A stretch of 64,000 bases of DNA from Arenicola marina (lineage: Eukaryota > Annelida > Polychaeta > Arenicolidae): the NCBI GenBank assembly GCA_964019135.1, contig OZ025248.1, forward strand, positions 38,371,670 through 38,435,669, read 5' to 3'. How positions within the stretch are numbered: the first letter of the stretch is position 1; every line of letters starts with the position of its first letter. Below, piece by piece: positions 3,883 through 64,000 of the stretch. The notes beneath the pieces are model-generated. The model was not told the origin of the DNA. It saw only the letters and a list, made by a program, of their open reading frames with translations, and did not search any database. A program made the translations under genes and the position numbers.

Positions 3883-6800
3883 ATGGAACAACCGATCATT
3901 GTGACGTGTGCGCTACTCATCCTCGGGTTGGTGTCCAGGGTGTCAGGTCTGGCAAAAGCAATGGATGAACAAGCAGAGTTGCGTGTGATGCCCGCCATTC
4001 AGAGCACGACAAAGTGCTACAGCAGTTACTTCTCCAAAAAGTTGTGTTCTGGCAACACGACGATTGAGATAACGGACGCCGTGTATGGAGTGAGTCCCTG
4101 TAACGCTAATCTCACTCATTGCTGTCCGGATACCGGCGACTGCACCATCCCGGCCGAACAGGCCAATCCTGACGATGCCAATCACCCTGACTATTACAAT
4201 GAAATTCTGGTCAAGTGTAACAATAAACAAACATGTGATGATCTTCGTGCCCTATGGATTGCCAACGTGCACTTGTGGTGTACAGGTGTCTCTGGCACCT
4301 CGGACTTCGTCACGCTCCACTACATGTGTCTCACAGGTAATACGAACCGTTGGACGTTTCTTTTATAAGTCTGTGCCACTGATCAACCAGGAAGCCCTTC
4401 TATCACTAACATTAGAATATAAATAAATAAGTAAATAAAGAAGTGGACCAAAACGCAAATAATTTTTCAATAATGAAAGTAAGCCCTTCCTGCCTTTGAG
4501 ATTGACGTACGCTTGCTCCCTTCACCTGAACGAAATCCTTATATCTGATGTTGTTTGCCTGTGCAGTAGTTCATCGAATATCTTTTACTTTGCATAAAGG
4601 AACACAGGGTATATAAAATTCCCATTATTATGTCTTATGTCGGTGTGTTCCGTTTGTGTGTGTGTGTTTGTTTGTCTGTCTGTAACGCAACGCATTATTT
4701 GTCGAATACCTTAAGATATCGACTTCCAAATTTACAAAAAGGATGCGGAACATCGTCAGGCTAAGTTCGTAGAGGGGACATGTAGGTCAAAGGTCAAGGT
4801 TACAGGAAGTTTTCGAAATTCGAGTAATTATTGGAAGATAGAACGAAAAATCCGGAAGATCGCTATAACGTACACAGTTTTCATTTAATCACGCTCAAAG
4901 TTAATTATCGTATTGGGCCCATAGGTACCTTACATACTGTGTTTTAATTTTGGAAATCGTTCGAATAGTTCTCTGCAAACAATTCCCAAACATGGGATCC
5001 TACGAGAGCATTTTGGCGGGAATTGGCATCCAGGCATAACGCTTCCAAGGTCAAGGTCATAGCAAGGTCAAGATCACGAGACATGTTTTGCCGCGTAACT
5101 ACGTTAATATATAGTCTAGAGGTTCTTTGTTTGTTTGAGACTATTCAGAGAGAAGCGGGAACGTGCTATTGACTTAAATTTTGCCTCATATTCATTTATT
5201 CATTATTCAATTTGTTGGAAGATCAAATTTTGACATTGTCAAAAGTGCAAACAAATCGCTCTGACTACATGAATGCAGGTAGATGACCCATATGTGGAGC
5301 AGTATGTACCTATGTTCTTGAAATCATGTTTGCCAAGTGGCATCAAAATCGAACCAGTATTTTGCATGCTAGAAAATAATCACACTTTAACATGGCCAAT
5401 CCCATTATAAAGCCTCGTTGCGCCAAATGACCGACGGCGTGGTGACGTTTCGGCCTACAATCCGGTCGATTGCATGTACATAGTCGCAGTCGGTACTAAC
5501 ATGTTCAGATTGCACCCCGATTTGCGTCTTTTTTCTCAAGCAATGGGTGACAATCTCGTTTATATATCATTCTGCCTCAATAGGTGGAAGTCGGTGACCA
5601 TGTCATTATTCCTGGCAATGTGATGTTTTCAGGCAATAAAATTGTGTTACAGAAGCAGACAGGCGTACGACCACAGCAGCCGCAACGACTGACGTAACGA
5701 TATCAGCGAGTACCACCAACATCTCCACAATCAATCCAAGTCCAGGGGCACCAGTGATTACAGTAGCCACGGCAACCGCGACTGTGGTATCCACGGCAAC
5801 CGCCACTGTGGTATCCACGGCAACCGCCACTGTGGTATCCACGGCAACCGCGACTGTGGTATCCACGGCAACCACAGATGTGATATCCACGACGACCTAT
5901 GTCACTGATGATGGTGACGATGAAGCTGGCGATAATTGTAAGCCATCCGTTTCGTCTCAAACAGATACTTTTTAGAAACAAAAATCGTGTATATGTTTCA
6001 CTTTGCCTTTTTTCTCGTTACATTGATAGATCAATTTTATGCATTTAACTTAAACAACGAATAGACAATTAGCATTAGCAATATAAATATATAAGTCCAT
6101 CATAAAAGCTTTGTTTGCAAAAGTTGAAATGTGCAAAAGGAAAAATTATTGAAATAGCAAGTTGTTGTCTTTAGCTTCATAAGGTTAATTCACTGTTTTG
6201 CATCTAGTAACATACCTGCTCCTTTACCTGCTTTATATCTGACAGCCACCCAAACCACAGTGATAATAGCGGTGATTGTGGCGGTGGTCGTGGCTGTGGG
6301 GGTCGTCCTGACGGTCTGGATGGTGTGCAGGTAACGCTGATGTCCCAGATAACAAAACAACACATAATGACACAGACACAGTGAAAACGATATTTGAAAT
6401 AGGCTAATGACTCGCATACTATATGGCGACGCTTAAAAGTCTCTCCAATTAACGAAAATTTTATCGTGGCTGGCAACGATGTGGAAAAAGAGTACAACGA
6501 CATGTCCACAAAGTCTGACTCTGAATAAACCGATATGCTACGGCTGCATTAACAACGGTCGAATCACTCCCATATGCAAGATGCAAACTTGATAAAGCAG
6601 CTTCTTGACTGAATAGTCATGTCGCCGCTTGACGTAGAAAGCTTGATATATGGCCCATGACACATATTAACTTGCATCCATTGATACACTCCATAAACGC
6701 TCTTTGCCAGACAGTAAGACACTGTTTACAGTTTCTTTTATCAAAAGTAAATCCACTGTCAGCTACCGTCGCTGTTTTTAACTACCGTTTTGTTCCAACA

Positions 6801-7384
6801 GAAAAAGGCAAGCAAACAACACGTCACAAGTGCCAGGGATGATGACGTCACACGCATCAGCGTGTGTTGATGACGTAGATCCGTATCACACAGCGCGACC
6901 TGGTGGCGGCCGAGGGCCACAGGGGCTGCCACCAGCTCGGGGGCTGAATGACGTCACCGAGTCGGCCACAAACCCTTCTGACACCGGTCAGCCCCTCACT
7001 GAACCCATGGTTACCAAGAAGCCGAAACCCAATCCCAAGGCCGTAGATAAGCCTAACATCGGAGCGGATCTCTACACCGAGGTGGTTGAGGTTCGGCCGA
7101 GGAAGAATGTGGTGCTCGATAAGTCCCCGGGGGAGGAGGATGTGGAGGCCAATAATAATGGGTCTGATATGACCGAGGCGGGGGACAGGGCATCGTACGA
7201 CCTCGTGATGCAGGAAAACCATGGGTACGGTACCAGGCAGGGGGTGGGTGGGGATGGGGAGGGAGAGGGGCACAAGGTGGACGGGAAGGGCCTCCCCCAA
7301 GAGGGCCGGCAAGATGGTGACCATGACGAACAGACAGATCCAGACTACGACCTGGTCATGAGAGAGAACAACGCCTACAGCTAG
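3883..7384 (+). CDS. Unit A: single-SUEL-domain mucin-stalk membrane receptor, class 1 tail
   Basis: Predicted four-exon gene: 3883-4336, 5653-5937, 6246-6330, 6802-7384 (stop TAG). All junctions are GT-AG and the joined frame is open for 468 residues. Exon 1 encodes a signal peptide (MEQPIIVTCALLILG) and one Cys-rich domain resembling SUEL/galactose-binding lectin domains (AVYGVSPC in the middle, YVTLHYMC at the end). Residues 152-246 are a Thr/Ser/Val-rich stalk with an in-frame 24-bp repeat. Residues about 250-273 are a Val/Ile/Ala transmembrane helix followed by basic RKR. The tail (275-468) has tyrosines in YTEV (Y366), YDLV (Y407, Y457), GYGTR (Y417) and NAYS (Y467). Compared with unit C, domain D1 is cleanly missing, with the signal peptide joined in frame to the D1-D2 linker. 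The ATG at 3883 is chosen because it aligns with the start in C and D. Ligand unknown; a lectin-type immune or adhesion receptor is inferred. Confidence 0.75.
4337..5652 (+). other. Intron 1 of unit A with dispersed repeat material
   Basis: The 1.3-kb intron contains a short GT/TTTG simple repeat (about 4653-4685) and several AGGTCA half-sites. These include AGGTCAAAGGTCA at 4784-4796 and TCAAGGTCA-type sites near 5050-5075, in a context that looks like a dispersed repeat. No exon is supported. Confidence 0.45.
5764..5880 (+). repeat. In-frame 24-bp repeat in mucin exon of unit A
   Basis: About 4-5 copies of a 24-bp unit (core GTATCCACGGCAACCGC) lie inside the stalk exon. They encode the 8-residue repeat TATATVVS. 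The length keeps the frame, so copy number changes would change stalk length without breaking the protein. Confidence 0.85.
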
Positions 7385-19338: not shown

Positions 19339-21735
19339 ATGGAACGACCGGTCATTTTCACGTGTGCGCTACTCATTCTCGGGTGTGTCGCGTCAGACTC
19401 CAGACAAACATGTGTCGATCGTATAGAAGATTTGCGGTTGGACTGTGGAGTTGGTGTTGTCTACGTGGAAGGAGCAGCAGCGCTGGGAGACTGTAGCGAG
19501 TTCGGGACGTGTTGCCAGGACACCAACCATGGTGATGACGTCATCACGGCGCGGGTTAGAGATTGGTGTGATGGCTTGGCGAGATGTCACGTGATGGCCT
19601 CCACTTGGTACCCTGCTGGAGGCGGCGGGCGAACCAGCCTGGTTGTGCGCTATATTTGTAAAGTTAGTGTACATATTAAGTCAGGTATGGGAATATCTGT
19701 GGATAAACTCGCAGAGTTGCGCGTGATGCCCACCATTCTAAGCACGACAAAGTGCTACGCCAGTTACTTCTCCCAACAGTTGTGTTTTGGCGACACGACG
19801 ATTGAGATAACGGAGGCCGTGTATGGAGTGAGTCCCTGTAACACTAGTAGCACTTACTGCTGTCCGGATCCCGGCGACTGTACCATCCCGGTCGAAGAGA
19901 AGGATCCTAACGAGCATCCTGACTATTACAATGAGATTCTGGTCAAGTGTAACAATAAACAGACATGTGATGACCTTCAAGCGCAATGGATCAGTTACAT
20001 TTCCCAGTGGTGTCCAGCTGCCCCTGACAACACGGATTACGTCACGCTCCACTACATGTGTCTCACAGGTATCTTCACTGTATGTTTTTGGTTTTCTTCG
20101 GTCATAATGCCCCGACACTTTCCGCCTGGACAATATCACCTCGAATTTATCTCACCGCACCGAACCACTTTTCTCATGCAATAAATCACTGATATCCGAT
20201 CTTTTTTTTTACTTAAATGATCACAGATTACAGACTTCTATCAATATAAATCGAGGCTACATATCATTCCGTAGACATGGAAATCTTAATATGTTTTTGG
20301 GCTGTAGATGCAGATAGGCTCACCACTACTGCAGCAGCTGCATCGCCTGGTGTAACCTTATCAACTACTACCACCACTCACCCCACAATCAAACCAGGAT
20401 CAGCGACTTCAGTTACTGAGGTATCCACCGCAACCTCCACTGTGAGGTCCATGACGGCCGATACCACTACTGATAGCGCTCTGGACAACAATGACGGTAA
20501 CGCATCCGTTCAGTCACACACTAAAACTAATTCTCAAATTGTATTATGATATGTCCCTTAACGTGTACTTGAAACACATTTCCATGTTGCTCTTACATTA
20601 ATCGAAAACAAAGCTTACATTTATCAACTGTACACATATTGGCAAGCCAAATTAACAGTAATATTTATATACTTCAATAATATAATAAGCCATGCCGTAT
20701 AACAGAAGAAAGAACGTTATAGGGAAATGATTTCGGAAGGTTCGTTCATTGCTTGGCGCATAGTACCATGCCTGCCTCTCTACCTGTCGTTTTTATTGAC
20801 AGTCTCCCTAACCATAGTGATAATAGCGGTGATTGTGGCGGTGGTCGTGGCTGTGGTAGTGGCCGTGACGGTCTGGCTGGTCTGCAGGTAACGCTAATGT
20901 CCAAAAAATGCTAAACAAAACATAATGACATAGAATATTAAACACATGAACGACGGCTCCACTAACTATTACTCATATTATAGGATGCAACCTTGATTAA
21001 TCAGCTTTTTGACTGTATAATCCACACGCTTGACACATGATTCAGAACGGTTATATATGGCATAAACTTTCTTTTAATATATGTACAAGTCGCTATTTTG
21101 ACTAATAACTCTCATTTTTGTCCAACAGAAAGAGGAAAGCAAACAGCACGTCACAAGAGAATAAAACTGCCGCTGCTCAGTCAGCGCCAGGCATGATGAC
21201 GTCACACGTATCAGCGTGTGTTGATGACGCAGATCCGTATCACACAGCGCGACCTGGTGGCGGCCCAGGGCCACGGGGACCGTTACCAGCTCAGGGGTTG
21301 AATGAAGTCACCAAGCCGGCCACAAACCGGTATGCCACCGGTCCGCCCCTCACTAAACCTATGGTTGCCAAGAAGCCAAAACTCAATCCAAAGGCCGTAG
21401 AAAAGCCTAACATCGGAGCGGATCTCTACACCGAGGTGGTTAAGGTGCGGCCGAGGAAGACTGTGGCGCTCGATAAGTCCCCGGGGGAGGAGGATGTGGA
21501 GGCCAATAATAATGGGTCTGATATGACCGAGGTGGGGGACAGGGCATCGTACGACCTCGTGATTCAGGAAAACCATGGGTACGGCACCCGACAGGGACTG
21601 GGTGGGGAGGGGCAGGGAGAGGGGCACGGGGACTGGGAGGGTCTCCCCCACGAGGGCCGCCAAGATGGCGACCAGGACGAACAGACAGACTCAGACTACG
21701 ACCTGGTCATGACAGAAAACAACGCCTACAGCTAA
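19339..21735 (+). CDS. Unit C: two-SUEL-domain mucin-stalk membrane receptor, class 1 tail
   Basis: The most complete lectin-type unit. Predicted exons are 19339-20068, 20308-20496, 20803-20887 and 21129-21735 (TAA), all GT-AG, joined frame 536 residues. Residues 1-22 are a signal peptide (MERPVIFTCALLILG). D1 (about 23-110, ending SLVVRYIC) and D2 (about 130-243, ending YVTLHYMC) are Cys-rich and resemble tandem SUEL/rhamnose-binding lectin domains. Residues 244-306 are a Thr-rich stalk, 307-334 a Val/Ile/Ala transmembrane segment, then RKRK and a 200-residue tail. Tail tyrosines are Y435 (YTEV), Y476 (YDLV), Y486 (GYGTR), Y525 (SDYDLV, which fits the ITIM consensus) and Y535. The ITAM site of class 2 tails is NEVT here. 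Introns 1 and 2 are phase 1; the intron after the membrane exon is phase 2. Likely a surface pattern-recognition or adhesion receptor; ligand unknown. Confidence 0.8.
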
Positions 21736-25124: not shown

Positions 25125-25199
25125 GGGCGCTTCTCAATCGCCAAGTGGCGGAAGCAAACCCGATAAAGCTATCACTGTACAGATCAGAAGTGAAGGGGG

Positions 25200-25593: not shown

Positions 25594-27140
25594 ATGGAGC
25601 GACCGGTCATTGTCACGTGTGCACTACTCATTCTCGGGTGTGGCGCGTCAGACTCCAGACAAACATGTGTCGATCGTACAGAAGATTTACGGTTGGACTG
25701 TGGAGTTGGTGTTGTCTACGTGGAAGGAGCAGCAGCGCTGGGAGACTGTAGCCAGTCCGTGACGTGTTGCCAGGATACCAGGCATGGTGATGACGTCATC
25801 ACGGCGTGGGTTAGAGATTGGTGTCACGGCTTAGCGAGATGTCACCTGGAGGCTTCGACCTGGTACCCTGCTGCAAGCGGTGGGCGAACCAGCTTGGCTG
25901 TGAGCTATATGTGTAATGTTGCCTCACACAGTAGGTCAGGTATGGAAATATCAGTGAATCAACTAGCAGAGTTGCGTGTGATGCCCGCCATTCTAAACAC
26001 GACAAAGTGCTACGCTAGTTACTTCTCCCAACAGTTGTGTTTTGGCGACACGACGATAACGGATAACGGACGCCGTGTATGGAGTGAGTTCGTGTACCGC
26101 TATTCCTACTCACTGCTGTCCGAATCCTGACGACTGTACCATCCCGGTGGAAGAGAAGGATCCTAACGAGCACCCTGAGTATTACAATGAGATTCTGGTC
26201 AAGTGTAACAATGGTGTGCAGGTGCCCGTGACAACACGGATTACGTCACGCTCCACTACATGTGTCTCACAGGTATCTCAACTGTGTGTTTGGTTTTTGC
26301 AATTTTGGGCGCCTGGTTTTGTCCGTGATCTTTTCTTCTGTCATAATGCCCCGACACTTTCCGCCTGGACAATATCACATCGAAGTTACCTTACTAATAG
26401 TCATTTTCCTGGCTATTACAAGTTACAGGTGGAACAATAAGCAGACATGTGATGGTCGTTTTACCTCTTGGAGCGCCTTTCTGTACATGTGGTGTACTGG
26501 GGTGTCTATGGCACCACGGATTACGTCACGCTACACTACATGTGTCTCACAGGTAATACAAACTGTTGGACGTTTTGATTTGAAGCCAATGGTGGATCAC
26601 ATGGTGGCACTTGCAAAGTCTCGCATTAACGCGCTTGCAATTAAAAACACAGTGTACTAACATATCACACACTTTTGATGATATAAAATTTTTCGCGTTT
26701 CTCACTTGAATATATGTCTATATTGTGCCAGTTATATCAACAAGGTGAAGCCCATTACATAACAAGCGCCTCTCGGGTAGTTAATCTTTACTTCGTGCTC
26801 AGTATTTCATTGGAAAATTTGGATTTCTTGTTAACCATTGCACCGATAGCGTCCAATTTCAGCTTTTAGCATGCTCTTTGCACTGTTCACTTCTATAAAT
26901 AGGTTGAAGTCAATACTGAATGCATATTTCCTTTATTATCTATGCTTTGCAATGTATACTTCCATTTATGCATAGAGAAGTTAATCCCATTATGTGTTTC
27001 AATGTTATTAACCGTGCTACCTAACATCATTGACTAAAAAGATATTTCTCATGCCCATAGTTCCAGACTATGCAAATTTGTTGATACGCCCTCTAGATGC
27101 AGATCGGCTGACAACAACAACAGCTACAACGACTGACGTA

Positions 27141-30100
27141 GATAGATAGATAGATAGATATTTCGTTTATTATAGTCACTTGTGAGCTCCATAATACAAT
27201 ATACACGCAACACAAATAACAGAAAAATACAGCTCACCCAGCCATCATGGCTTATAAGTGACTTCAAGTTAAATAATATAATTGAATATGATTGAACAAT
27301 ATAATCTTTATCATTTATACTCTTACTCAGTCCAATATTATTATAATATGTAGAGAACTATGCTAAGCGTAAACAAACAAATATAACATACAGAACATAT
27401 AACCATCACTCAACGATACAACCGATTTTTCCTGATATGCCATGCTGCTGATAGGTAAGTTGTCAGAGGCTTCCAACAATATTTTAACAGATATATAAGT
27501 TGATCTTCTTTGTCCAAAATGTTAAATGTGGGATAGATCTTTGATGCGTGTTTATACAACGTTTCTCTGTATGACATATATACATCACAAACACATACAA
27601 AATGAACCTCGTTTTCAACTTCTCCCATGGAACAAAGACTACAAATTCGTTCTTCAGGCCGCAGTTTGCGATACTTTCCGGTGGAGGGGTCGACCATTAA
27701 TTTGTACCTTCCGGTTTCTAGTTCGATAGGTAACACTCCACAGCGCAACTGTGCAAGGAGTGATCTTTCCGGCCTGTTGGAATAACACGAGAGATATTTC
27801 TCAGTACCAAAGCACTCTTTAAACTTAACGTAGGTACGCAATTTCGGTTTAGTTTCTACCTCAGCACGCCATTCAACTTGTTGTAAATTAATTAAACGTT
27901 CAAGGGATACTTCAATGTTACACTGGCTCTTGGTTTCAAATACCCGAGATTGTCCAATATCGCTAAAGATATTTTCTACACTAGCGCACCAACCGTTACA
28001 GTTTAGACTCAATTCCCAATTAAAGATTGTTTTTGGGAGTCGGTAATCGGGCATTTTTATTATTTCATTCCATAATTTCAGCATTGATAAAAATCTTCTG
28101 TATCTAGGTAGCATCCATCCCATGTCCCCATTTATTGCTGCTATTGGTGCAAACTTGTGCACACCCATGAAGTATCTCAGTGCTCGATTTTGGACATTAT
28201 TGCATTTAGGAAAACGACCGTATCCCCACACTGCAGAGCCATAATCCATGATTGGTACTACCCCTGCTTCATACAATTTGCTATATGTGTGGTACCCGAC
28301 ATTTTTTACTGTCTTAAAACGCGCGATAATGGCAGACAGAGCCCTGCCACTGGCATCTGCTAGTGTTTCGGAGCATTCTAGGAATTCTAGGTATTCATCA
28401 AATATGACACCTAGGTATTTGTATTTCGTTTCCACCTGAATAACGTCCGCACCGCATCGAAATGTGACAGAGGTGCGTGCCCGCCGTCGCGGGCGGAAAT
28501 GGACAACTTTAGTCTTGTTTACATTCAGTTTCAAGCGCCACTTCATACACCACTCATGCATAATTGACAACATCTTTTGCAAGTTGCTTTCACTTTCGGC
28601 TAACAGAACAATGTCATCTGCATATAAAAGTATAGAAACTACCTCTTCTCCAATTTGGACTCCGAGCGACGCAGATTTTAATTTGAGGGCCAAGTCGTTG
28701 ATGTAGAGACCAAACAATGTCGGCGACAGGTTATCGCCCTGCCGTATACCATGGGTGACGGGGAACCAATTCGTATGAAGACCGTTGATTTTCACACATG
28801 CTTCCGTGTTCATATACAACGCCTTTATAGCATCATAGATTTTTCCATTGATATTGTAATCAAGAAGACGAACCATCAGAAGGTCCCGATCGACACGGTC
28901 AAACGCTTTTTCCATATCAACAAAGACTGCATAAGTTGACAAGCCCATTAATTTTCTATTTCGAGCAATGCTACTTAAGGTGTAAATGTGTTCTTGACAA
29001 TTACGGCCAGGTCGAAAGCCATTTTGCTCTTCTACAATTAGATCAATCAGCTCCGTATACTGACCAATTCTTTTGTTAAGTACGGACGAGTAAAGTTTCC
29101 CGATACAAGAGATAAGACTAATGGCCCGGTAGTTCAGTGGCACACATGGATCAAGTAGCGCACCTTTCGGTATTGGCTTTATCAGTGCTTTTGACCACAA
29201 GGACGGGCAAATGCCTAGACTGAAACATGCTTGGAACAGATCCCGTAATATCGTGAGTATTCTACCTGTTTTCAATACCTCATTTGGAATTAGATCTAGA
29301 CCGACCGCCTTTTTGTTTTTTAATCTAGAAACGGCAACATGTACCTCAGATAACTCAATATCGTGATTTAAAAATTCATTTGCAACCTCTTCATTTGGAT
29401 ACATCATAGCTTCAACCCTTTCTTTATAAGACATTGCATCTTTATAAAATGAGTTATCGAAGGAGGTAAAATCGCCAACCGACGGATTGTACAGGGACGA
29501 AAAGTCCTTTTCCCATACCTTAAGTACTTCTTGAGTTTCCGTGAAACAATGTTCGTCTGTGACAACTCTCATTGGAATATCCTTGTTTGAACGAGGTCCA
29601 AGTCGCTTAAGAGTGTCCCAAAATTCCTTGGGATTCTTACTGCTAATATCATCCAGTGTCTTTATCAATGTAGAACTATGCTCTCTCTTAGCCTTCCGTA
29701 ACTCCCTGTCAAATGTATGTCTAGCTGCCTGAAATTCCCTTCTCAACTTACTCTTCTCTTTAGTATTACCCTTACATTTCAGGAAAGTCTTTTCCCGTAA
29801 ACACATAGTTTTCCAGAGCTGGGTAAGTTCATCAGTCCAATACGGTTTACCATATTTGATTCTTTTTCTCGTATTTCTGTTACAGCCTACTGTGGGTGAG
29901 AGATATTCATCCATTTCTTTTGTAATAGCTTTACACATGTCATCATAGACATGGTCAACACTCTCCTGTCCGTCATGGATTTGTTCTATCCTTTCAATAA
30001 GTTGACTTACAGTTCTACCCCAAGCGGGTGATAAGAGAAAATCCGGTGGTATCATGCGTAGTTTATACTTCGGTTTCTCCACACTACGGTGGGCAACGTT

Positions 30101-30796
30101 CTCCCTTTCATTATTGTCTATAATGACGTCACAAAGATCAAATTCGGCTGTTAACACTGAGTGGTCAGGTAATTTGCATGTATCTGTAATTAACTCCTCC
30201 AGGCGATACCTTTCAACGAGATCACTTACCAAATCTACACGAAATTTACCAAATGACTTGATACTATCATGAGGAACCAACATGTAATCTACAACAGATT
30301 TTCCCCTTGTTGATACAAACGTGTAGTTATCATCTTCTCCAACTCTACCATTCAGCATACAAAACTTAATATCATGGAGAAAGGCAATTAATGAGTCTCC
30401 GTGACTGTTCTTAGATTTATCGAGAACCACTCTCGGTGGAATGTCGTCTATATCGCATATAACATCTTGGTCTCTACCCGTCCTGGCATTTAAATCACCA
30501 CAAAGGATTATGGAATCGGCATTACTTTGTAAGTATATTTCTGTGATTAAGTGAGCAAAAAAAGAACCAGCATCTCTACCCCAGGGCGAATTTTCCGGTG
30601 GCAGGTAACATGAGTAAATTACAGCAGAGAAATCAGTGCATTGATGTTTTAACCGTAGTCCGAGAATACCTTCATATTTGTCCACCACTTCAACATCAAA
30701 GACTTCGTAGAGGTTGTTCTTTACTAGTATTCCAACTCCGCCTGAACCTTTTCGCGCCCGCTTATGGGTTCCGCTTCTGTTGTTGCCGTAGAAGGA
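27141..30796 (-). mobile_element. 5'-truncated non-LTR (LINE) retrotransposon
   Basis: Inserted in the stalk exon of unit D in the opposite orientation. The 3' end is a (GATA)n-type tail at 27141-27165. The 5' end, near 30796, lies inside the endonuclease domain: reading upstream from the annotated frame gives a YGNN...KGSGGVGILV segment typical of these endonucleases before host stalk sequence resumes. The start of the endonuclease domain and any ORF1 are missing. The exact junction at the 5' end is uncertain by about 10 bases. Confidence 0.85.
27410..30688 (-). CDS. Non-LTR retrotransposon endonuclease/reverse transcriptase ORF
   Basis: One uninterrupted frame of 1092 residues from the first ATG; homology continues about 35 residues upstream of it, so the ATG is internal. 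The first about 200 residues are an APE-type endonuclease (CGDLNARTG, then VVDYMLVPHD). The middle holds a reverse transcriptase (GLDLIPNEVLK, FVDMEKAFDRVDR, GIRQGDNLSP, and YADD at about 28615-28630). The C-terminus has a Cys-rich CSLCSMGEVENEVHFVCVC motif. The element copies its own RNA at a nicked target. The intact frame suggests recent insertion, but the missing 5' end makes it non-autonomous. I do not assign a clade. Confidence 0.85.
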   Translation of the reverse strand: MVDKYEGILGLRLKHQCTDFSAVIYSCYLPPENSPWGRDAGSFFAHLITEIYLQSNADSIILCGDLNARTGRDQDVICDIDDIPPRVVLDKSKNSHGDSLIAFLHDIKFCMLNGRVGEDDNYTFVSTRGKSVVDYMLVPHDSIKSFGKFRVDLVSDLVERYRLEELITDTCKLPDHSVLTAEFDLCDVIIDNNERENVAHRSVEKPKYKLRMIPPDFLLSPAWGRTVSQLIERIEQIHDGQESVDHVYDDMCKAITKEMDEYLSPTVGCNRNTRKRIKYGKPYWTDELTQLWKTMCLREKTFLKCKGNTKEKSKLRREFQAARHTFDRELRKAKREHSSTLIKTLDDISSKNPKEFWDTLKRLGPRSNKDIPMRVVTDEHCFTETQEVLKVWEKDFSSLYNPSVGDFTSFDNSFYKDAMSYKERVEAMMYPNEEVANEFLNHDIELSEVHVAVSRLKNKKAVGLDLIPNEVLKTGRILTILRDLFQACFSLGICPSLWSKALIKPIPKGALLDPCVPLNYRAISLISCIGKLYSSVLNKRIGQYTELIDLIVEEQNGFRPGRNCQEHIYTLSSIARNRKLMGLSTYAVFVDMEKAFDRVDRDLLMVRLLDYNINGKIYDAIKALYMNTEACVKINGLHTNWFPVTHGIRQGDNLSPTLFGLYINDLALKLKSASLGVQIGEEVVSILLYADDIVLLAESESNLQKMLSIMHEWCMKWRLKLNVNKTKVVHFRPRRRARTSVTFRCGADVIQVETKYKYLGVIFDEYLEFLECSETLADASGRALSAIIARFKTVKNVGYHTYSKLYEAGVVPIMDYGSAVWGYGRFPKCNNVQNRALRYFMGVHKFAPIAAINGDMGWMLPRYRRFLSMLKLWNEIIKMPDYRLPKTIFNWELSLNCNGWCASVENIFSDIGQSRVFETKSQCNIEVSLERLINLQQVEWRAEVETKPKLRTYVKFKECFGTEKYLSCYSNRPERSLLAQLRCGVLPIELETGRYKLMVDPSTGKYRKLRPEERICSLCSMGEVENEVHFVCVCDVYMSYRETLYKHASKIYPTFNILDKEDQLIYLLKYCWKPLTTYLSAAWHIRKNRLYR

Positions 30797-32295: not shown

Positions 32296-32381
32296 TGGCT
32301 CCTCTGATTTCTGAATTTGATTATCATTGTTATCAAACTCAAAATCATTATCAAAAAAACACTTAAAAACTACATACATAG

Positions 32382-37254: not shown

Positions 37255-37719
37255 TGTGCTATAAGTCGGTTGTTCGAATTTGTGTACCACAATTCTTCTT
37301 TGAGTCACAGTTCTTTTGGTTTATTTAACGTGAAACTGCAACAATAAAAGTGCAAATATAGACACATTAGGATATATCATGTAAGCCAACGTCCAACTGT
37401 TAGCTGAAATGACATTAGCAATTTGATGCAGTTTGACACAGCAGAATGTCAACAAATAACAAGATGACTATGCAGAACAAATAATCTAATTATACACAAA
37501 TAAATAAGTATATATCGTTTCTAAATGTTACCAAGATTCAAACCAAAAACTAATTAATATACCTTCGATCCCACAATCATGTCCAAATAGATACAACCTT
37601 CCAAAAACTGCCGGCTTATCAACACTTCACCGAATTGAAACAAGCGGTTCTCTTCTCACTTCCGTTATGTAGGTCGCACTCTAGTAAATCAACTGCGACC
37701 TTAATTTATAACTTTTACC
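37255..37719 (-). repeat. 5' LTR of the BEL/Pao element
   Basis: Direct repeat of 31831-32295, same length. The leader between it and the Gag start (36413-37254) has no coding call. Confidence 0.9.
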
Positions 37720-38018
37720 CAGATCCGTATTACGTAAATTCGCAATCATCTCTTGGTTTTTATGACGTCATCAAGCCGGCCATGGAGGCCTACGAACCCT
37801 TGAGGCCCTACACTAAACCTGAGGTCTCCAAGACAACGGGAGATTATGTCAACGTTGTCGATACAACAATGGAAGGAAGGGCTCTGTACAGTGAGCTTGC
37901 CCCTGGAACGGGCATCGCGCCAGGAAAGGCCTCGGATGAGGGGAACACAACACCAGGGATGGACTGGGCATTAGACGACCTCAGGCTGGTGGAAAACGAT
38001 CAGTACGGCATGAGATAG

Positions 38019-39755: not shown

Positions 39756-42700
39756 ACCGATGACCGACGGTATGACTGTGGAGTTGGTGTTGTCTACGTG
39801 GCAGGAGCAGCAGCGCTGGGAGACTGTAGCGAGTTCGGGACGTGTTGCCAGGATACCAGCCATGGTGATGACGTCATCACGGCGCGGATTAGAGTTTGGT
39901 GCGATGGCTTAGCGAGATGTCACGTGACAGCCTCCACCTGGTACCGTGCTGCGAACCGGGAGCGAACCAGCCTGGCAGTGAGCTATAAGTGTGACGTTAG
40001 GGCGCACATTAGGTCAGGTATGAAAATATCAGTGGATCTACCAGCAGAGTTACGTGTGATGCCCGCCATTCAAAACACGACACAGTGCTACGGCAGTTAC
40101 TTCTACCAACAGTTGTGTTTTGGTGACACGACGATTGAGATAACGGACGCCGTGTATGGAGTGAGTCCGTGTAACTCGGATGGTGATCCCAGGCACTGCT
40201 GTCCAGATCCCGGCGACTGTACCATCCCGGTGGAGGAGGACAATCCGCTCGATCACCCTGACTATTACAAGGAAATTTTGGTCAACTGTAACAATAAACA
40301 GACATGTGATGACCTTCAAGCGCAATGGATTAACAACATTTACAAGTGGTGTTCACCTGTCTCTGGCACCACGGATTACGTCACGCTCCACTACATGTGT
40401 CTCACAGGTAATACGAACAGCTGGACGTTTTGATTTGCACAATTTTGGATATTTATCTAACATGATCACAATGCAACGCTAATTGTGATAGTTGAATGTG
40501 TATTATATCAATAACGGTTTTCATACTTCGTTAAAAAGGTGTTTAGTCCCGTATCTGTCGAATCCTGTAGGTTTTGCTTTATGCACTGGTGTAAATAGAT
40601 TGAGACCAATATCGAACCTAAATTGTCTAAAATCGATGTGAATTATGAATGTTTCCCTGTTGGCATAGGTTACACTAATCTAGATATGCGTTTCAGTTTC
40701 AATAAACGTGCTATTATCGACTAACAACATAGTTCTTCGCGTTCAAGTAGGTTATTAATATTAAGTGTGTCCATAATTCCCAAACAATTCAGTATACGCT
40801 CTGTAAACGTCAATATGTACATAACATGGAATATTTAAATGAAATTCAACATGAACTTTAAAACATCAAATCATGACCATGACTTCTGATTATGGAAATC
40901 CGCTTGACCATCTAGAAGCAGATCGGCTGACCACTACAACAGCTGCAACGACTGACCTAATCAAAACAAGTGCCAGCACCATTTCCACGATCAAGCCAAG
41001 TCCAGTGACGGTAGCGGTATCCACAGCATCCACAGTATCCATGTCGACCGATGGGCCAACTGATAATGAATCCAGTGAAGGTAAGCCAGCCGTCCAGTCT
41101 CACCCAGTGACAGTGACTCTTCTTGTCAGATATTTCCTTGGAGGATGTCACCGTACGCTTTATTTAAAAAATCTTTACGTCGAGGCCAACTGATTTGACT
41201 TAGATAGAGGAGTGGGAAGCCCCGAGTTCTGGCACGATGGCAGGCCTGGCAGAGTTCGCTCATGACAAAGTGCCCTAACCACCAGACCATACGGATCATC
41301 TATGTAACCTGGCAGCTTTGGTCCCCAGCGGAAGCCGAACTCACGGTCTCTCGATATCGATTCAACCACTCTACATGTGCGGCTAATGGGAGGATCCCTC
41401 TAGCCGAGGTTAGCAGGCATGGTTTGACTCACTGTTATATCTTCGTAATTGGATCGATCAATTCGATGTATATATATGGTTATGTTCACTACCATCAATT
41501 AGCAAGTGTCAGCATTAACCCTAATAGGATTAGAAGCACAAGTGACTTTTAAAGGGTCAGTATAATACTGGGGAAAATTATGTTGCATTAAGCAGAACTT
41601 AGCTGGTCCTCAATGTCATAACGTAAGAGCGTTGTTTTGATCGAGTTAATTGAACCATGTTTGTACTTTACTTGACAGCCCCCCAGACCGCGGTGATAAT
41701 ACCGGTAGTTGTGACGATTGTCATGGTCGTTGTGGCTGCGGTGGTGACAGTGACGGTCTGGATGGTGTACAGGTAATGTCCACAGATACTCTTCATAATA
41801 GCCAGCTCGCCATGAAGTGGGTGAGTGCCGAGTGAGTGCCGCATGAAAGGACTCAATCACGTTAATGTCTGATCTAATGCATGGATTGATCGTGCTTTCG
41901 TTTCTAATATAAAAAAACCCCACAAAGCCTCGAGCATCTTTCGAAATATAACGAGGAACTCAACAAGCAGGACATTTGTTTGTGATTTAGTAGGATTAAT
42001 GACAAAAACCAAAGACCAAATTAGAAATTAAAGGATGCGACTGACTTCACGGATTCTCTACCATCGACGTATCCACTGCGTGTATTGCAATGATAGAAAG
42101 CGTCCGGCGTTCAAAGAGGGGTAGGGATACGTTTTCGGGTCTCCAGGCATCCAGGAATTCTTGGAGATTTGCGATCAGCTGTTGACAATTTTTAGGGATC
42201 GTTATCCGGACAATTAGTGGTTCAACGCAAAGACCCTTAGCCTATTTCCCGCGATCTGTCATAGCAGTCTGTCAATTCCTCGATATTCACGATATCACCA
42301 TTATGTTTTTTTTTCTTGTGTCCAGCTTTAAGATGTCTTAATCTTGGAGATTCGCGATTCAGAGGGAGTATCCCCCCCCACACACACACCTCCTTTATAC
42401 GTTAACATATCATCTTTTCAATCATTAAACATCGCTCAGATTTTGTTGTATAAGTGCATTCAAACATATTGATATTTTAATCAATAATATTCCCATTTTA
42501 TACCGACAGCAAGAGGAGAGCCAACACCACGTCCGGAGAGAGTAAAACTGTCGGTGCCCAGTCACCAGGTCTGGACAACTCGATTCGCCTCCCGGAAGCT
42601 GAGCCTCTCCCACAGTCACCACCGCGGATGATGACGTCACACCCCCCAGCGAGTGTTGATGACGCAGATCCGTATAACTTAAATTCGCAATCATCTCCTG

Positions 42701-42963
42701 GTTTCTATGACGTCATCAAGCCGGCCACTGAGGCCTACGAACCCTTGCAGCCCTACAATAGACCTGTGGTCGCCACGACAACGGGAGATTATGTCAACGT
42801 TGTCGATACGACAATGGAAGGAAGGGGTCTGTACACTGAACTGGCCCCGGGAACGGGCGTCGTGCCAGGAAAGGACCCGGGTGAGGGAAACACAACACCA
42901 GGGATGGACTGGGCACTGGACGACCCCATGCTGGTGGAAAATCATCAGTACGGCACGAGATAG
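39756..42963 (+). pseudogene. Unit E: receptor with intact body but lost 5' end, class 2 tail
   Basis: Exons 39756-40407, 40916-41080, 41679-41772 and 42510-42963 (TAG). The joined frame is open for 454 codons, with intact splice sites. The first exon begins mid-D1 (YDCGVGVVYV): the start codon, signal peptide and TCVDR segment are missing and a TAA lies at 39753-39755. No upstream AG acceptor or in-frame ATG repairs it nearby. Compared with unit H, the 5' flank is fused directly to D1 after CCGATGACCGA, which points to a deletion of the exon start. D1 ends SLAVSYKC, D2 ends YVTLHYMC, then a 55-codon Thr/Ser stalk, a transmembrane segment, and a tail with YDVI-x6-YEPL, YVNV, YTEL and QYGTR. 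It would be functional only if a distant exon supplied a signal peptide. Confidence 0.7.
41205..41295 (-). repeat. tRNA-derived SINE-like remnant in intron of unit E
   Basis: The minus strand starts TGGTCTGGTGGTTAGGGC, a near-textbook tRNA 5' region with A box, and ends in GAACTCGGGGCTTCC, a weak B box. Same intron and orientation as the copies in D and G. Confidence 0.55.
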
Positions 42964-44960: not shown

Positions 44961-45083
44961 TATATATTTTTGCACGGTCCAGTCACTGAGACGTTTGTTG
45001 AGAGAAGGATCGTTTGTTTTCCAGATCTGCAACGGAATATACGCCTCTGTGAAACATGTCGATTGCCGCTGTTAAACATTGAA

Positions 45084-46265
45084 CGATCGATATGTTTCAC
45101 GTGTGCGCTACTCATTCTCGGGTGTGGCGCGTCAGACTGCAGACAAACATGTGTCGATCGTACAGAAGATTTACGGTTGGACTGTGGAGTTGGTGTTGTC
45201 TATGTGGAAGGAGCAGCAGCGCTGGGAGACTGTAGCGAGTCCGTGACGTGTTGCCAGGATACCAGCCATGGTGATGACGTCATCACGGCGCGGGTTAGGC
45301 ACTGGTATCAAGATCGAGAACTCTGTCACGTATGACGCTTGATCGGGGATAATCAGCAGGTTCTGGGCGATTGACGGTTATTACTCAATCAAAGCCACCA
45401 CCATGAAAGCTGCTCATACAACAATTGTCCACCTGCATTATTAATGTCCAAACAAGTTTGAACAAATGTCTTGGACTGTGACTATATGACTGTGTACATG
45501 TTAACTATGTACGAAGTGCACATATTTAAAAAGGCAAACAGCAGTAGTGATGCCCGAAGTTTGATGACTCAAGTATTACGCAAAACATTCATACGAGATG
45601 CATAAATACGTGTCATAGAGACGCCTGATCTGGCTTTGCATACTTTTCATATCCAAGAACATCATTTTGTAAAAAATTGTGCCGGTTGTCGTTATCGTCG
45701 TGGCTGTGGTGGTGGCAGTGACGGTGTGGATGGAGCGCAGGTACTACTGACATTTATCAGGGATTTAACATTAATGAGGAACATAGGCGATAAAACTAAT
45801 GCAACATTCCGATTCTAATCATACAGAATGAGAAAATCCGAGAACACCACGTCCCAAGATAATAAAACAGTCGGTGCCCAGTCCCCAGGTCTGGACAACT
45901 CGATTCACCTCCCGGAAGCTGACCCCCTCCCACAGTCTCAGCCGCCGATGATGACGCCCCACGCACCATCGGGTGTTGCTGACGTTGCTCCGTATTACGT
46001 AAATTCACAATCATCTTCGGATTTCTATGAAGTCATCAAGCCGGCCACAGAGGCCTACGAACCCTTAGGGTCATACAATAGACCTGAGGCCGCCCCGACA
46101 ACAGGAGATTATGTCAACGTTGTCGATACGACAATGGAAGGAAGGGCTCTGTACACTGAGCTTGCCCCGGGAAGGCCCCCGGGTGAGGGGAACACAACAC
46201 CAGCGACGGACTGGGCAATGAAAGACCCCATGCTTGTGGAAAGTCATCCGTACGGCACGAGATAG
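45084..46265 (+). pseudogene. Unit F: truncated receptor pseudogene, class 2 tail
   Basis: The exon 1 remnant (45084-45335) reads ERSICFTCALLILG then D1 up to RELCHV and stops; the start ATG is ATT here, and D2 is absent. No stalk exon is found. The membrane exon remnant (about 45671-45740) has lost its first third and its acceptor, but keeps VVVIVVAVVVAVTVW and its donor. The tail exon (45827-46265, TAG) is open, with YEVI-x6-YEPL, YVNV, YTEL and PYGTR and a small deletion after LAPG. The tail exon alone is well preserved, so loss may be recent, or it is kept similar by gene conversion. Confidence 0.75.
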
Positions 46266-56702: not shown

Positions 56703-59700
56703 ATGCTTAAAAACAGCGCCATGTTAACAATGGATCGTCATGGTAACAACCGTCAACATTGGCTGGTACTTCCCTTGTTGGCACTAATGGCAGCATGGTT
56801 GCTGTGCAACACCCCAATTGGCCACGTGCAAAGTCTCTCGTTGGACCAACGTTTCCAAGGTAATGCACCCGGTTTTGGCCGGGACAGTCACCGGTGATAG
56901 ATATCGTTCTTTCACGCAGCAGAGCAGACTAAAGTTCGGATAAAATACACATAATTATCAGCAGTAAATTGATGATGATACAGAGCCATTAAAGTCGCCA
57001 CTTAGGAACAGAACACGTGGGTGATAATATAGGTCTAGAGAAGGACGCGGACCATTATCATTGTCATGAAGTCTCTTTTCAGCTGATGGTCGGAATGATG
57101 TTGATCCGTGTAACAAGGGGAAGTACTGTGTGGTGGACACTGTCGTGGCCAACCCGGACAATTGTACCACTTACTTTTTGTGCGTTCCTAGCGGCTGGAA
57201 TGAAATGCCGTGTAACCCCAATCTGGGGTTCAATCCTGAGACAGGACACTGCGACTACATGGCCGAGGTCACGTGTCAGCCACCCTGTCCCCCCTTCACC
57301 GGCCCCACCACCACCGAGGGGCCCACCATCTCACCAGGTATGTGTAAATCAATTAATAGGGTGACTCCCAATACCCTGCCCCCCCCCCCCACCCCACTCT
57401 CACCGGTCCCACCCACACCAAAGGGCCCACCATCTCATCAGGTATGCATCAATTAACAGGATGGTTTACCTTCCGGACGCTTTCAGCAATGCTGGTCATA
57501 TCGCTTCAATGGGAGAAAGAAGGGAGAGTGGGGCCATGTATCCGGGGGTGACCCCCTACTCTTTGCGAAGAGGACATGGGATCTTTATCCTGCGACCACG
57601 CAGACATGGCCACAGCGGGGCGCAAATCACAGATCCACGTGCCGTTGGGCTCTCAGGTGCCAAAATCACTCAAGGCTAGCGCTGTAACACAGTGGGCTAT
57701 CGAGGCAGCCCCTTGAATTAATAATCGAAAGCTAATACCCTGTCCCCCTCCCCCCTTTCGTGGCTCCACTACCACCACTGTGTCCACCGAGGTGGTACGA
57801 GTATCTTGTTATATAATTAACAATGCACAACGTGTAAGATATCACTGTGAACATGGTTCTAATAGATCTGTCCTTGAGTTATATCCAGTGGTAACGTTAC
57901 CTCTTACGCTGTCCCCGCCGCTGCCGTTTAGGTCTGTGCCACTACGTGGCGCTGCCATGTACCGCTGGGGAGAGGTTCGCCGATGTCTCCAGCTGTGAAC
58001 ATTATTACGAGTGCGTCGTCTTCAACACACTCCGCAGACTGCAGTGCCCGGGGGGACAGGTTTTCGACATCTACCTCTCGATGTGTAATGTCGTCACCCC
58101 GGGCTTCGATTGTGACTACCGCTGTACAACCACCGGGGCGCCAACGACATTACCCGCCACCACAACGTCACACACTGCCACGTCAGTGTCAAGCGTCGGT
58201 CAGGCGGCGTCATCGACAGCACAACATGACACTACCGTGTTGTCTTCTACGACGTCGGACAGCAAAACACTAACCGCCACCACCACCAGCGAGGGGCCCA
58301 CCATCTCGCCTGGTATGTGTCAAACAATAATTAGATGACTCTAAAACCCTGCGTCGCCCCCCCCCCCCCTCATCGGCACTACCACCACCAAGGGACCCAA
58401 TATCTCACTGGGTATGTGTCAATCAATTAACAAGGTGACTGCTTGCTCATTCGAACATGTCACGTCACGCTTACCTAAGATAGTTTTCCATCGAGGCCGA
58501 CTGATTTTCTTCTAATAGTGGGACGCGAACCCCGAATTTTGGCACGATGGCTGGGCTGGCCGAGTTCAATTTTCAATTAATAGGGTGACTGCTAATACCC
58601 TGCCTCCCCACCCCCATACCTCGTCGTCCCAACCACCACCAAGGGACGTGATATAATGATTATGATTATGAATAATCTGTAGACAAATGTCCATTTAAGT
58701 ATTGGCGCCGCCTAAGTGTGGATTATGAATATGGTCCCAGGTTTGTCGCACAGCTCACAAAAGTGGACGGGGAGCGCCTCACCTGCAGCAACTGCAGCAT
58801 CCACAACGACTGACGTAACCGTATCAACGAGTACCGCCTCCATCTCCACGACCAAACCAGAATCCCCCGCAGTTGCGGTGTCTACAGCAACCCCGGCTGT
58901 TGTATCCATGGTGACCAATGTCAGAACTGAGAGTGACGCCAGTGAAGGTAAGCCAGCCGTCCAGTCTCATCCTAGGATAATTTTTCATCGAGGCTGACTG
59001 ATTTGCTTCTAATACTCGGACGCGAACCCCGAATTCCGGCACGACGGCTGGGCTGGCAGCGTTCACTTTTCACAATTAAAAGGGTGACTGCTAATACCCT
59101 GTTTCACCACATCACCTCCCCCCCCCCCCTCACCTCATCGGCCCCACCCCCACCAAGGGGCCTGATATAATGATTATGATTATGAATAATCACTAGACAA
59201 ATGTCCATTTAAGTCTATTGGGGCCGCCTAAGTATGGATTATGAATATGTTCCCAGGTTTGTCGCAAAGCTCTCAAGAGTGGATGGGGAGCGCCTCACCT
59301 GCAGCAACTGCAGCATCCAAAACGACTGACGTAACCGTATCAACGAGTATCATCTCCATCTCCACGACCAAACCAGAATCTTCCACAGTTGCGGTGTCCA
59401 CAGCAACCCCGGATGTTGTATCCATGGTGACCGATGTCACCGCTGAGAGTGACGCCAGTGAATGTAAGCCAGCCGTCCAGTCTCACCCAATAGTGACAAT
59501 GTCTCTTCTTGTCGGATTTGCCATACGAATAGGTCACCTTAACCTTACCTAAGATAGTTTTTCAACGAGGCCGACTGATTTCCTTCTAATAGGGGGGCGC
59601 GAACCCCGAATTCCGGCACGACGGCTGGGCTGGCAGAGTTCACTGGCGACACAGAGCGTTAGCGACCAGGCCACGCCGGTCATACATGTAATTAAACCAA

Positions 59701-60684
59701 TCGATTGGATATATACAGATGCATCATTTGATTAGGCACAAATGTCATAATCAGAACTTTGGCTTCGTAAAGTTAGATTGTTCTGTTTATCCCATTATAA
59801 TTCCTGTTTTAATTGAGATAGCAATCTTCTTCATCTGAGTACCTTCGTACTATACTTGACAGCCCCCCAGACCGCGGTGATAATAGCGGTGGTTGTGGCG
59901 GCTGTCGTGGTCGTCGTGGCTGTGGTCATGGCAGTGACGGTCTGCATGGTGTGCAGGTACTACTGACATTTATCAGGGATTTAGGATTAATGAGGAACAT
60001 AAGCGATAAAATAGAGCTTAAAAAAGCCGTGTCGCCACCAGGTCTCGACAATCGGCAACAGACGATCTACTGCAATGGTATACTGAAAAAGAACGATTTA
60101 AGGGTTCACACATGCAAATATGAATTCCTTAAACATTACTATAATACATACAAACTGTTTCAAGCCATATTGATATGTTGACTAAAGCAAAATTCCTATT
60201 CTATTCCGAAAGAAAGAGGAGACCCGACACCATGTCCGAAGATAGTAAACCTGACGGTGCCCAGTCACAAGGTCTGTACAACACGATTTACCTCCGGGAA
60301 GCTGAGCCTCTCCCACTGTCACCGCCGCGGATGATGACGTCACACGCGTCAACGGGTTTTGATGACGTTGCTCCGTCTTACATCAATTCACAATCATCTT
60401 CGGATTTGTATGACGTCATCAAGCCGGTCTCGGAGGCCTACGAACCCTTGGGGCCCTACAATAGACCTGAGGTCGCCGAGACAACGGGAGATTATGTCAA
60501 CGTTGTGGATACGACAATGGAAGGAAGGGCTCTGTACACTGAGCTTGCCCCGGGAACGGGCGTCGTGTCAGGGAAGGTTCCGGGTGAGGGGAACACAACA
60601 CCAGGGATGGACTGGGCAATGGACGACCCCATGCTGGTGGAAAACCATCAGTACGGCACGTTCCTGTCAGGGGATGGGTGTTGA
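56703..60684 (+). CDS. Unit G: chitin-binding mucin-stalk receptor with ITAM-bearing class 2 tail
   Basis: Predicted seven exons: 56703-56859, 57083-57337, 57932-58312, 58741-58947, 59257-59463, 59863-59956, 60213-60684 (TGA). All are GT-AG and the joined frame is 590 residues. The signal peptide (LVLPLLALMAAWLL core) ends near residue 45. Residues 53-137 and 138-264 each hold a six-cysteine chitin-binding type 2 (peritrophin) domain plus a Pro/Thr linker ending EGPTISPG. Stalk exons 265-333 and 334-402 are near duplicates. A transmembrane segment (about 403-433) is followed by RKRR. Tail motifs: Y456 (YNTI), ITAM Y500/Y510 (YDVI-x6-YEPL), Y528 (YVNV, Grb2 type), Y542 (YTEL). The stop is displaced, so the end is GTFLSGDGC rather than GTR. 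It is inferred to sense chitin-containing surfaces and signal through SH2 kinases; chitin binding is not shown. Confidence 0.8.
57390..59165 (+). repeat. Repeated linker-exon-end remnants in introns of G
   Basis: Copies of the end of the chitin-domain linker exon plus the start of its intron (ACCACCA...GGGxCCxACCATCTCA, then GGTATGxxTCAATTAA) occur in introns at about 57395-57455, 58370-58435, 58600-58650 and 59120-59165. Each is preceded by a poly-C run. They look like the ends of further chitin-domain cassettes that have lost their exons. SINE-like pieces lie beside two of them. Confidence 0.55.
59590..59690 (-). repeat. tRNA-derived SINE-like remnant in intron of unit G
   Basis: Minus strand: GCCTGGTCGCTAACGC (A-box like) and GGGGTTCGCGCCCC (B-box like). 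Closely related to the copies in the same intron of D and E. Partial copies are at about 58505-58565 and 59015-59065, each after a duplicated stalk-exon-like block. Confidence 0.5.
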
Positions 60685-62340: not shown

Positions 62341-62368
62341 GAAATACTCCTCTGGTAAACGACAGACG

Positions 62369-64000
62369 ATGTACCGCCGGACTGGAGTTGCTGTTGTCTA
62401 CGTGGAAGGAGCAGCAGCGCTGGGAGACTGTAGCGAGTCCTTGTCGTGTTGCCCGGATACCAGCCATGGTGATGACGTCATCAAGGCGCGGGTTAGGGAT
62501 TGGTGTGACGGCTTGGCGAGATGTCACGTGACGGCCTCAAAAAATGTCAGTGGATCAACCAGCAGAGTAACGTGTGATACCCGCCATTAAAACACGACAC
62601 AGTGCTACGCCAGTTACTTCTCCCAACAGTTGTGTTTTGGTGACACGACCATTGAGATAACGGACGCCGTGTATGGAGTGAGTCCGTGGAACTCGGTTGG
62701 TAATTCCAGGTACTGCTGTCCGGATCCCGGCGACTGTACCATCCCTGTCGAAGAGAAGGATCCTAGCGATCACTCTGACTATTACAATGAGATTCTGGTC
62801 AAGTGTAACAATAAACAGACATGTGATGACCTTCAAGTGCAATGGGTCAGTTACATTTCCCAGTGGTGTCCAGGTGCCCGTGACACAACAGATTAAGTCA
62901 CGCTCCACTACATGTGTCTCACAGGTATCTCCGCTGTATGTTTGGTTTTTGCCACTTTGGGCGCCTTCTTTTGTCCGTGATCTTTTCTTCGTTCATAATG
63001 TCTCGACACGTTCCGCCTGGACAATATCATTTCGAATTTACCTCACCGCCCCTTTACTACCTGTCTTTAATGATCACACATTAAATACTTCTATGAATAT
63101 ACATCGACGCTACATATCATTCCGCAGACATGGAAGTTTTTAATCTAGTAATAAAAATAAAATCTGAGTATGTTATGCGCTATAGATGCAGAAAGGCTCA
63201 CCACGACGGTACCACCACAACCACGACTGTGGTGTCCATGGCGGCCGATACCACTACTGATAGCGCTCTGGACCACAGTGATGGTAAAGCATTCGTTCCG
63301 TCACTCACTAAAACTAATTCTGAAATTGTATTCCGGTATTACTCTTATGAAATTAACAGTAATATTTATATACTTCAATAATATAATCGGTCATGCCGTA
63401 TAACAGAAAAAAGAACGTTATACGGAAAGGATTTCGTTCATTGCTTGGCACCTAGTACCATGCCTGCCTCTCTACCTGTCGTTTTTACTTGACAGTCCCC
63501 CTAACCATAGTGTTAATAGCGGTGATTGTGGCGGTTATATATGGCATATGTTGATCACTTTCTTACATTATAAGTACGTCCTCTTTCAGCCATATCGCTA
63601 TTTTAACTAAAAACTCTCAGTCCTCTCCAACAGAAAGAGGAAAGCAAACATCACGTCACAACAGAATAAAACTGCCGCTGCCCAGTCACGGTCAGACATG
63701 ATGACGCCATACGTATCAGCGTGTATTGATGACATAGATCCGTATCACACAGCGCGACCTGGTGGCGGCCCAGGGCCAAGGGCGCCGCCACCAGCTCAGG
63801 CGTTGAATGACGTCACCAACCCGGCCACAAACTGGTATGACACCGGTCAGCCCCTCACTAAAGCTATGGTTACCAAGAAGCCAGAATCCAATCCCAAGTT
63901 CGTAAATAAGCTTAACATGGGAGCGGACCTCTACACCGGGGTGGTTAAGGTGCGGCCGAGGAAGAATGTGGTGCTCGATAGGTCCCCGAGGGAGCAGGAT
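62369..64000 (+). pseudogene. Unit H: receptor pseudogene, class 1 tail, runs off the window
   Basis: The exon 1 remnant starts at MYRRTGVAVVYVEG inside D1, with the signal peptide missing. A deletion after HVTAS joins D1 to the linker, which then has stops (GAG-TAA and beyond). D2 (from about 62600) has a Cys-to-Trp change (SPWNS) and a TAA replacing the Tyr codon before VTLHYMC (about 62893). The stalk exon (63186-63283) is 98 bp, not a multiple of 3. The membrane exon (63496 to about 63533) has lost its second half and its donor. The tail exon (63634 to beyond 64000) is open to the window end and reads as class 1 (NDVTNPAT, LYTGV). Its 5' flank is of the E/F type while its tail is of the A/C type, so it is a recombinant. 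Confidence 0.75.

Follow-up and report, generated by a model that had tools for sequence, protein, structure and literature searches.

Does a cluster of receptors in an invertebrate genome place similar ectodomains on different signalling tails, as vertebrate paired receptors do? The question is raised by a stretch of 64,000 nt from Arenicola marina contig OZ025248.1 (the window; all positions are window positions), which an original prediction, made from the letters alone, had taken for a cluster of lectin- and chitin-type receptors with immunoreceptor-style tails. From the sequence we lean towards reading the locus as a tandem modular family of type I receptors that would signal through phosphotyrosine, with class 2 tails acting like those of receptors with an immunoreceptor tyrosine-based activation motif (ITAM) and class 1 tails working in a different mode; ITAM and non-ITAM forms are perhaps paired, and an immune role of the family is likely. 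A splice-aware reading, together with tblastn of each module against the window, identified seven receptor units (U1 to U7), adjoining copies on the + strand whose tail exons all lie in one orientation, one of them split by a retroelement (U3) and one cut by the window end (U7). Three units have complete models (U1, U2 and U6) and the other four are broken or truncated. Their ectodomains are built from two Cys-rich modules, here called A and B, or from CBM14 domains.

3883..7384, + strand: U1, complete, 468 aa, class 1 tail; GT..AG introns, phases 1,1,2; exons 3883-4336, 5653-5937, 6246-6330 and 6802-7384 (splice model)
19339..21735, + strand: U2, complete, 536 aa, class 1 tail; GT..AG introns, phases 1,1,2; exons 19339-20068, 20308-20496, 20803-20887 and 21129-21735 (splice model)
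25594..26275, + strand: U3 signal peptide, module A and broken module B; frameshift, with tblastn pieces in different frames
26426..26597, + strand: U3 scar, where the end of exon 1 recurs as a second, partial copy (blastn)
27096..30932, + strand: U3 mucin exon, split by a long interspersed nuclear element (LINE) into pieces 27096-27141 and about 30796-30932 (tblastn, Pfam)
31329..38018, + strand: U3 transmembrane and class 2 tail region; transmembrane exon about 31329-31422
about 31670-31830 and 37720-38018, + strand: pieces of the U3 tail exon, split by a BEL/Pao element (tblastn)
39756..42963, + strand: U4, 5'-truncated, class 2 tail, open throughout otherwise; exons 39756-40407, 40916-41080, 41679-41772 and 42510-42963 (splice model)
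45078..46265, + strand: U5 remnant; signal peptide and module A without ATG 45078-45332, class 2 tail 45826-46265
56730..60684, + strand: U6, complete, 581 aa, class 2 tail; canonical introns; CBM_14 at 54.3 bits in two stretches; exons (splice model) 56730-56859 (signal peptide), 57083-57337 and 57932-58312 (CBM14), 58741-58947 and 59257-59463 (mucin), 59863-59956 (transmembrane) and 60213-60684 (tail)
62346..64000, + strand: U7, class 1 tail from 63634, cut by the window end (translation, tblastn)

U1 begins with the ATG at position 3883 and runs from a signal peptide through a single Cys-rich module (B, without module A), a stalk with 40% Ser+Thr and a transmembrane helix to its class 1 tail; U2 has both modules A and B and a rear end as in U1, and the signal-peptide exon of U6 was located by a dedicated search. 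All 12 introns of the three complete models are GT..AG and the exons that these models share have the same intron phases. In these models the exons that encode ectodomain, CBM14 and mucin parts all have a phase 1 end and are thus well suited to exchange. The transmembrane segments of U1, U2, U4 and U6 contain no charged residue when read by eye, and a charged adaptor of the DAP12 type is therefore not implied. A transmembrane exon or its remnant precedes the tail in six of the seven units by tblastn, and a shortened one does so in U7 by translation; on these grounds we rejected, within the window, the idea that the tail is a dispersed repeat. The self-comparison of the window took in matches of at least 150 bp, so that the matches listed are a lower bound.

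Damage to the remaining units takes several forms. No start codon or signal peptide was found for U4, including in an upstream search for a signal-peptide exon, from which one weak candidate at 38842 was not accepted. U5 is missing module B and its transmembrane exon (about 45661-45741) is degraded. Module B of U7 is interrupted by an in-frame stop at 62894, and no signal peptide was seen in the translation of U7, the upstream search having been made for U4 only. The original prediction of at least seven tandem units, mixing intact with broken copies and showing domain loss (module A in U1, module B in U5), is borne out; the common plan that it assigned to them applies to all seven in the tyrosine tail and the transmembrane exon or remnant, but not in the signal peptide, given the state of U4, U5 and U7.

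Two classes of tyrosine tail

The four class 2 tails (U3, U4, U5 and U6) share YDVI or YEVI followed after six residues by YEPL, then YVNV and YTEL or YSEL. The three class 1 tails (U1, U2 and U7) have YTEV or YTGV, hence YxxV in each, and those of U1 and U2 add two copies of YDLV, each with NxxY behind it, at positions before which U7 is cut. With a strict ITAM defined as YxxL/I-x(6-8)-YxxL/I in a cytoplasmic tail, all four class 2 tails and none of the three class 1 tails qualify, as the original prediction had it for both classes, down to the Grb2-type (YVN) and YxxL (YTEL/YSEL) motifs of class 2. A strict immunoreceptor tyrosine-based inhibitory motif (ITIM) occurs in one of three class 1 tails (SDYDLV in U2), that of U7 being cut by the window end.

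The two classes are homologous (tblastn E down to 1e-19), with codons that can be aligned through the ITAM site: TAT GAC/GAA GTC ATC ... TAC GAA CCC TTG/TTA in class 2 against AAT GAC/GAA GTC ACC ... TCT or TAT ... GGT in class 1. All three class 1 tails have Asn in place of the first ITAM tyrosine; U2 and U7 retain the second, for which U1 has Ser, and the residue at +3 is Gly throughout. The classes thus have a common ancestor, and either class 1 lost the ITAM or class 2 acquired it. Across the four class 2 copies the consensus residues Y, I, Y and L are invariant, with three of 10 spacer columns varying, the spacing from YxxI to YxxL is exactly six, and YVN is invariant as well. The Grb2/YxxL segment TTGDYVNVVDTTMEGR[AG]LY[TS]ELAP of class 2, which was first chosen by eye and then placed in a window scan, has a ratio of nonsynonymous to synonymous differences (pN/pS) of 0.11, the lowest of 127 windows; outside the whole block from the ITAM to YTEL the ratio is 0.84.

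Ectodomains and their exchange between tails

U6 matches CBM_14 (PF01607) in two stretches at 54.3 bits against a Pfam gathering score of 22.1 (E 1.4e-14), and its two domains scored apart reach 42.4 and 28.1 bits. Among the sequence relatives of the first that have solved structures are chitinases and a chitin-binding protein from beak, and we regard the assignment of these domains to CBM14 as certain. Module B resembles SUEL_Lectin (PF02140) by eye in length and Cys pattern; the family cut-off of 31.4 bits is reached neither by full U2 (14.2 bits) nor by three isolated B modules (10.1-11.9 bits), and the families listed for the whole of U1 and of U4 do not include SUEL_Lectin, while a Pfam search of two A modules returned no family. 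The AlphaFold2 models are too poor to decide on a SUEL fold (pLDDT, predicted local distance difference test, 29.8 for the U2 ectodomain and 43.3 for module B), and the best 50 matches of each fold search with the module B model include no SUEL structure. Fold matches of that same model to PII- or CutA-like proteins and ribosomal chains were not trusted. No match to the U2 ectodomain or a module B profile was found in PDB by sequence, and a profile comparison of module A with module B gave a probability of 3.7, by which relatedness is not demonstrated. The lectin label is therefore weak, and we do not file module B as a lectin. EVA-1 and latrophilin are membrane receptors with SUEL-type domains; the comparison with them lies at the level of the ectodomain, where module B matches SUEL below threshold and module A does not match it. 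No Ig (immunoglobulin) family was listed for U1, U2 or U4 (Pfam, E up to 1) or for U6 (E up to 0.01).

Tails are 84.7-90.2% identical within a class (9 pairs) and 54.6-65.2% identical between classes (12 of 12 pairs), and a tree of tails separates the classes at 100/100 support. In module B, by contrast, all six cross-class pairs are 85.4-90.4% identical, compared with 81.5-90.5% in four within-class pairs, and in the signal peptide and module A the corresponding ranges are 81.6-91.0% (six of six) and 82.7-88.2% (four pairs). That the tails diverged while cross-class modules stayed 82-91% identical indicates that ectodomain modules were exchanged between tail classes. A topology in which the ectodomains of U3 and U4 group together is rejected (approximately unbiased test, p-AU 0.028). 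The scar in U3 is closest to U1 and U4 and is preceded by an intron start resembling those of U7 and U2 (blastn); it may be a direct trace of ectodomain recombination. This duplication, and the conflict between ectodomain and tail relationships, agree with the exchange originally predicted. As for the receptors being of lectin and chitin type, the second term stands through U6 and the first is weak; with that correction, the interpretation as a tandem modular family with two tails survives.

Favoured reading, possible pairing and competing explanations

On the favoured reading, which we hold to be somewhat more likely than not, the locus is a tandemly duplicated family of type I cell-surface receptors. 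Each receptor would consist of a signal peptide, an exchangeable ectodomain (A/B modules or two CBM14 domains), a Thr/Ser-rich stalk, a Val-rich uncharged transmembrane helix and a tyrosine-motif tail. Binding of chitin or another glycan, the presumed ligand, would cluster class 2 receptors; a Src-family kinase could then phosphorylate the ITAM (YDVI-x6-YEPL), a Syk-type kinase would dock, and YVNV and YTEL would recruit further SH2 partners, of the Grb2 type and others, with uptake or cell activation as the outcome. Class 1 derives from the same ancestral tail, with the ITAM positions lost or never present. Since it has YxxV and, in U1 and U2, NxxY without an ITAM, different signalling is expected of it (modulatory, inhibitory or endocytic). 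By recombination, ectodomains that are alike have passed from one tail class to the other, an arrangement also known from paired receptors of vertebrates. A further step, which in its full form we hold to be rather unlikely, would be a non-Ig invertebrate paired-receptor system, in which Cys-rich or chitin-binding ectodomains are shuttled between an ITAM tail and an altered sister tail (YxxV/NxxY), giving activating and modulating versions.

Several observations weigh against the favoured reading of the family. A strict ITAM is found in seven of the 105 open reading frames (ORFs) of at least 100 aa in the window, namely the four class 2 tails and three of the other 101; shuffling of class 2 tails also yields it in 0.4-1.2% of cases, so that by itself the motif is weak evidence. 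In the block from the ITAM to YTEL, constraint does not significantly exceed that of the remainder (column permutation P 0.088), 15 of 105 windows of the same length being as low, and tyrosine columns in class 2 are invariant in six of eight cases against 51 of 83 for other residues. Whole-exon ratios of nonsynonymous to synonymous rates (dN/dS) are loose, with bootstrap intervals wholly below 1 in two of 21 pairs and wholly above 1 in one; the U2-U7 tail pair (63634-64000 in U7) has a dN/dS of 2.24 (interval 1.07-6.08) despite the stop in the U7 ectodomain. An ectodomain tree places U3 with U2, weakly (76/83). The Cys-rich copies with an ITAM tail (U3, U4 and U5) are all broken or 5'-truncated, and since only U1, U2 and U6 have complete models, the window contains no intact copy that joins a Cys-rich ectodomain to an ITAM tail. 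Finally, no protein homologues were found for full U2, the U4 tail or the ectodomain alignment in a collection of 5.8 billion proteins, possibly with few from animals, where for full U2 and the ectodomain alignment the best 7993 and 7992 candidates by common words were scored; nor was a relative of the U4 tail found among phages, or one of module B confirmed among 76 pattern matches in viral_contigs. More telling than the bare ITAM pattern are its conservation in four copies and the constraint seen in the codons of the segment next to it.

Because each half of the ITAM doubles as a YxxPhi sorting signal, the main rival is an endocytic or scavenger role in gut or another epithelium, in which CBM14 would bind dietary or mucus chitin and ITAM-type kinase signalling would have no part. 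YDVI, YEPL, YTEL and YDLV all fit YxxPhi, NxxY is an adaptor-binding signal, CBM14 is common in gut-matrix proteins, and the best-constrained segment runs from YVNV to YTEL and not over the ITAM. Sorting alone, however, does not need the YVN that is invariant in every class 2 copy, and the exact six-residue spacing kept in all four also speaks against this rival; we consider the endocytic explanation unlikely, if the most serious. Decay of the cluster, with most copies pseudogenes and selection on the family at an end in this species, would account for the four broken or truncated units of seven and for the loose whole-exon rates, but is very improbable in view of three intact models, their uniformly canonical introns and the ratio of 0.11 in the class 2 core, even though that ratio comes from four copies of which three are broken. 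We judge it improbable, too, that the same duplication and exchange diversified receptors for recognition outside immunity (allorecognition, gamete recognition or adhesion). PMC12065747 reports ITAM/ITIM on candidate Hydractinia allorecognition genes, and most of the ITAM/ITIM pathway expressed in the tissue that decides fusion in Botryllus; yet the known receptors of both are Ig-type (for Botryllus, PMC12065747), unlike U1, U2, U4 and U6, and nothing in the window indicates a fusion or gamete role.

The proposed paired-receptor system can be set beside several known ones. Pairs of activating and non-activating receptors whose likeness is preserved by recombination have been described mostly in the Ig and C-type lectin families of vertebrates.

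The vertebrate pairs CEACAM1/CEACAM3, Siglec-11/16 and CD300A/C likewise have clustered genes with very similar ectodomains and different signalling tails, and recombination or gene conversion maintains the likeness (for CEACAM, PMC5112662, which describes exon-restricted recombination keeping ectodomains alike in frog CEACAM paired receptors). Near-identical ectodomains on two tail types do occur in the present cluster, but no intact pair of both tail types with a common ectodomain was found within the window; the family further differs in the absence of Ig domains, in the single strict ITIM of class 1 and in the state of its Cys-rich ITAM copies. Hydractinia Alr and Botryllus fester/FcoR are invertebrate recognition receptors linked to ITAM/ITIM signalling, but they are Ig (and sushi) receptors, fester itself without a known signalling motif (PMC12065747), whereas here CBM14 and unclassified Cys-rich domains sit on tyrosine tails of their own. 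Inhibition by amphioxus BbLcLRR needs three tyrosine sites, of which two are YxxV, the motif type of class 1 tails; by its name this receptor is an LRR (leucine-rich repeat) receptor, and the available portion of the report describes no shuffled cluster (PMC8211107). A haemocyte glycoprotein of Halocynthia, likened here by description, is an invertebrate ITAM protein involved in phagocytosis and haemocyte aggregation, with no tandem family described in the part of the source at hand (PMC5465252). No description of CBM14 or SUEL ectodomains on ITAM tails was found among the listed titles and abstract starts of open-access papers, which is no proof of absence. If the proposal is true, a non-Ig, chitin-binding version of paired receptors would suggest that selection on modular receptors, and not the Ig fold, gives rise to the arrangement, and would allow a direct test of the responses that chitin-bearing microbes or food set off in an invertebrate.

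Retroelements and repeats of the window

Two retroelements interrupt U3:

27410-30841, - strand: LINE ORF in the U3 mucin exon (Pfam)
31830..37718, - strand: BEL/Pao element in the U3 tail exon, with long terminal repeats (LTRs) at 31830-32294 and 37254-37718

The LTRs differ at seven of 465 positions and are flanked by a 6-bp target duplication, CAGATC (their ends can shift by one base); a target duplication looked for at the LINE insertion was not found. Together with the CBM14 receptor and the exon structure, the BEL/Pao element suggests an invertebrate genome. A further ORF of 251 aa (52696-53451, - strand), without a Pfam match, resembles a LINE end when read by eye.

Repeats also occur in the stalks. 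A 24-bp tandem repeat of 5.4 copies in the U1 mucin exon (5763..5891, + strand; Tandem Repeats Finder) is a candidate variable-length stalk, and the region of the U6 mucin exons (58474-59488) is a tandem duplication with 87% identity. G-rich repeats of 50 bp trail three of the four class 2 tails (38058-38517 behind U3, 43039-43631 behind U4 and 60671-61174 behind U6). A similar copy at 35-497 suggests, by its resemblance to these, that a further unit probably ends just left of the window.

Elsewhere, a large G-rich field of 101/202-bp minisatellites, partly inverted, occupies 9221-17560; the 15-bp repeats on its flanks are open in several frames and so give rise to spurious ORFs. A GC-rich 32-bp minisatellite of about 140 copies lies at 47610-52222, and a 39-bp tandem repeat of about 40 copies (96% matches) at 53864-55399. 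An ORF of 127 aa on the - strand (1396-1779) lies over a 24-bp repeat and encodes an 8-residue repeat.

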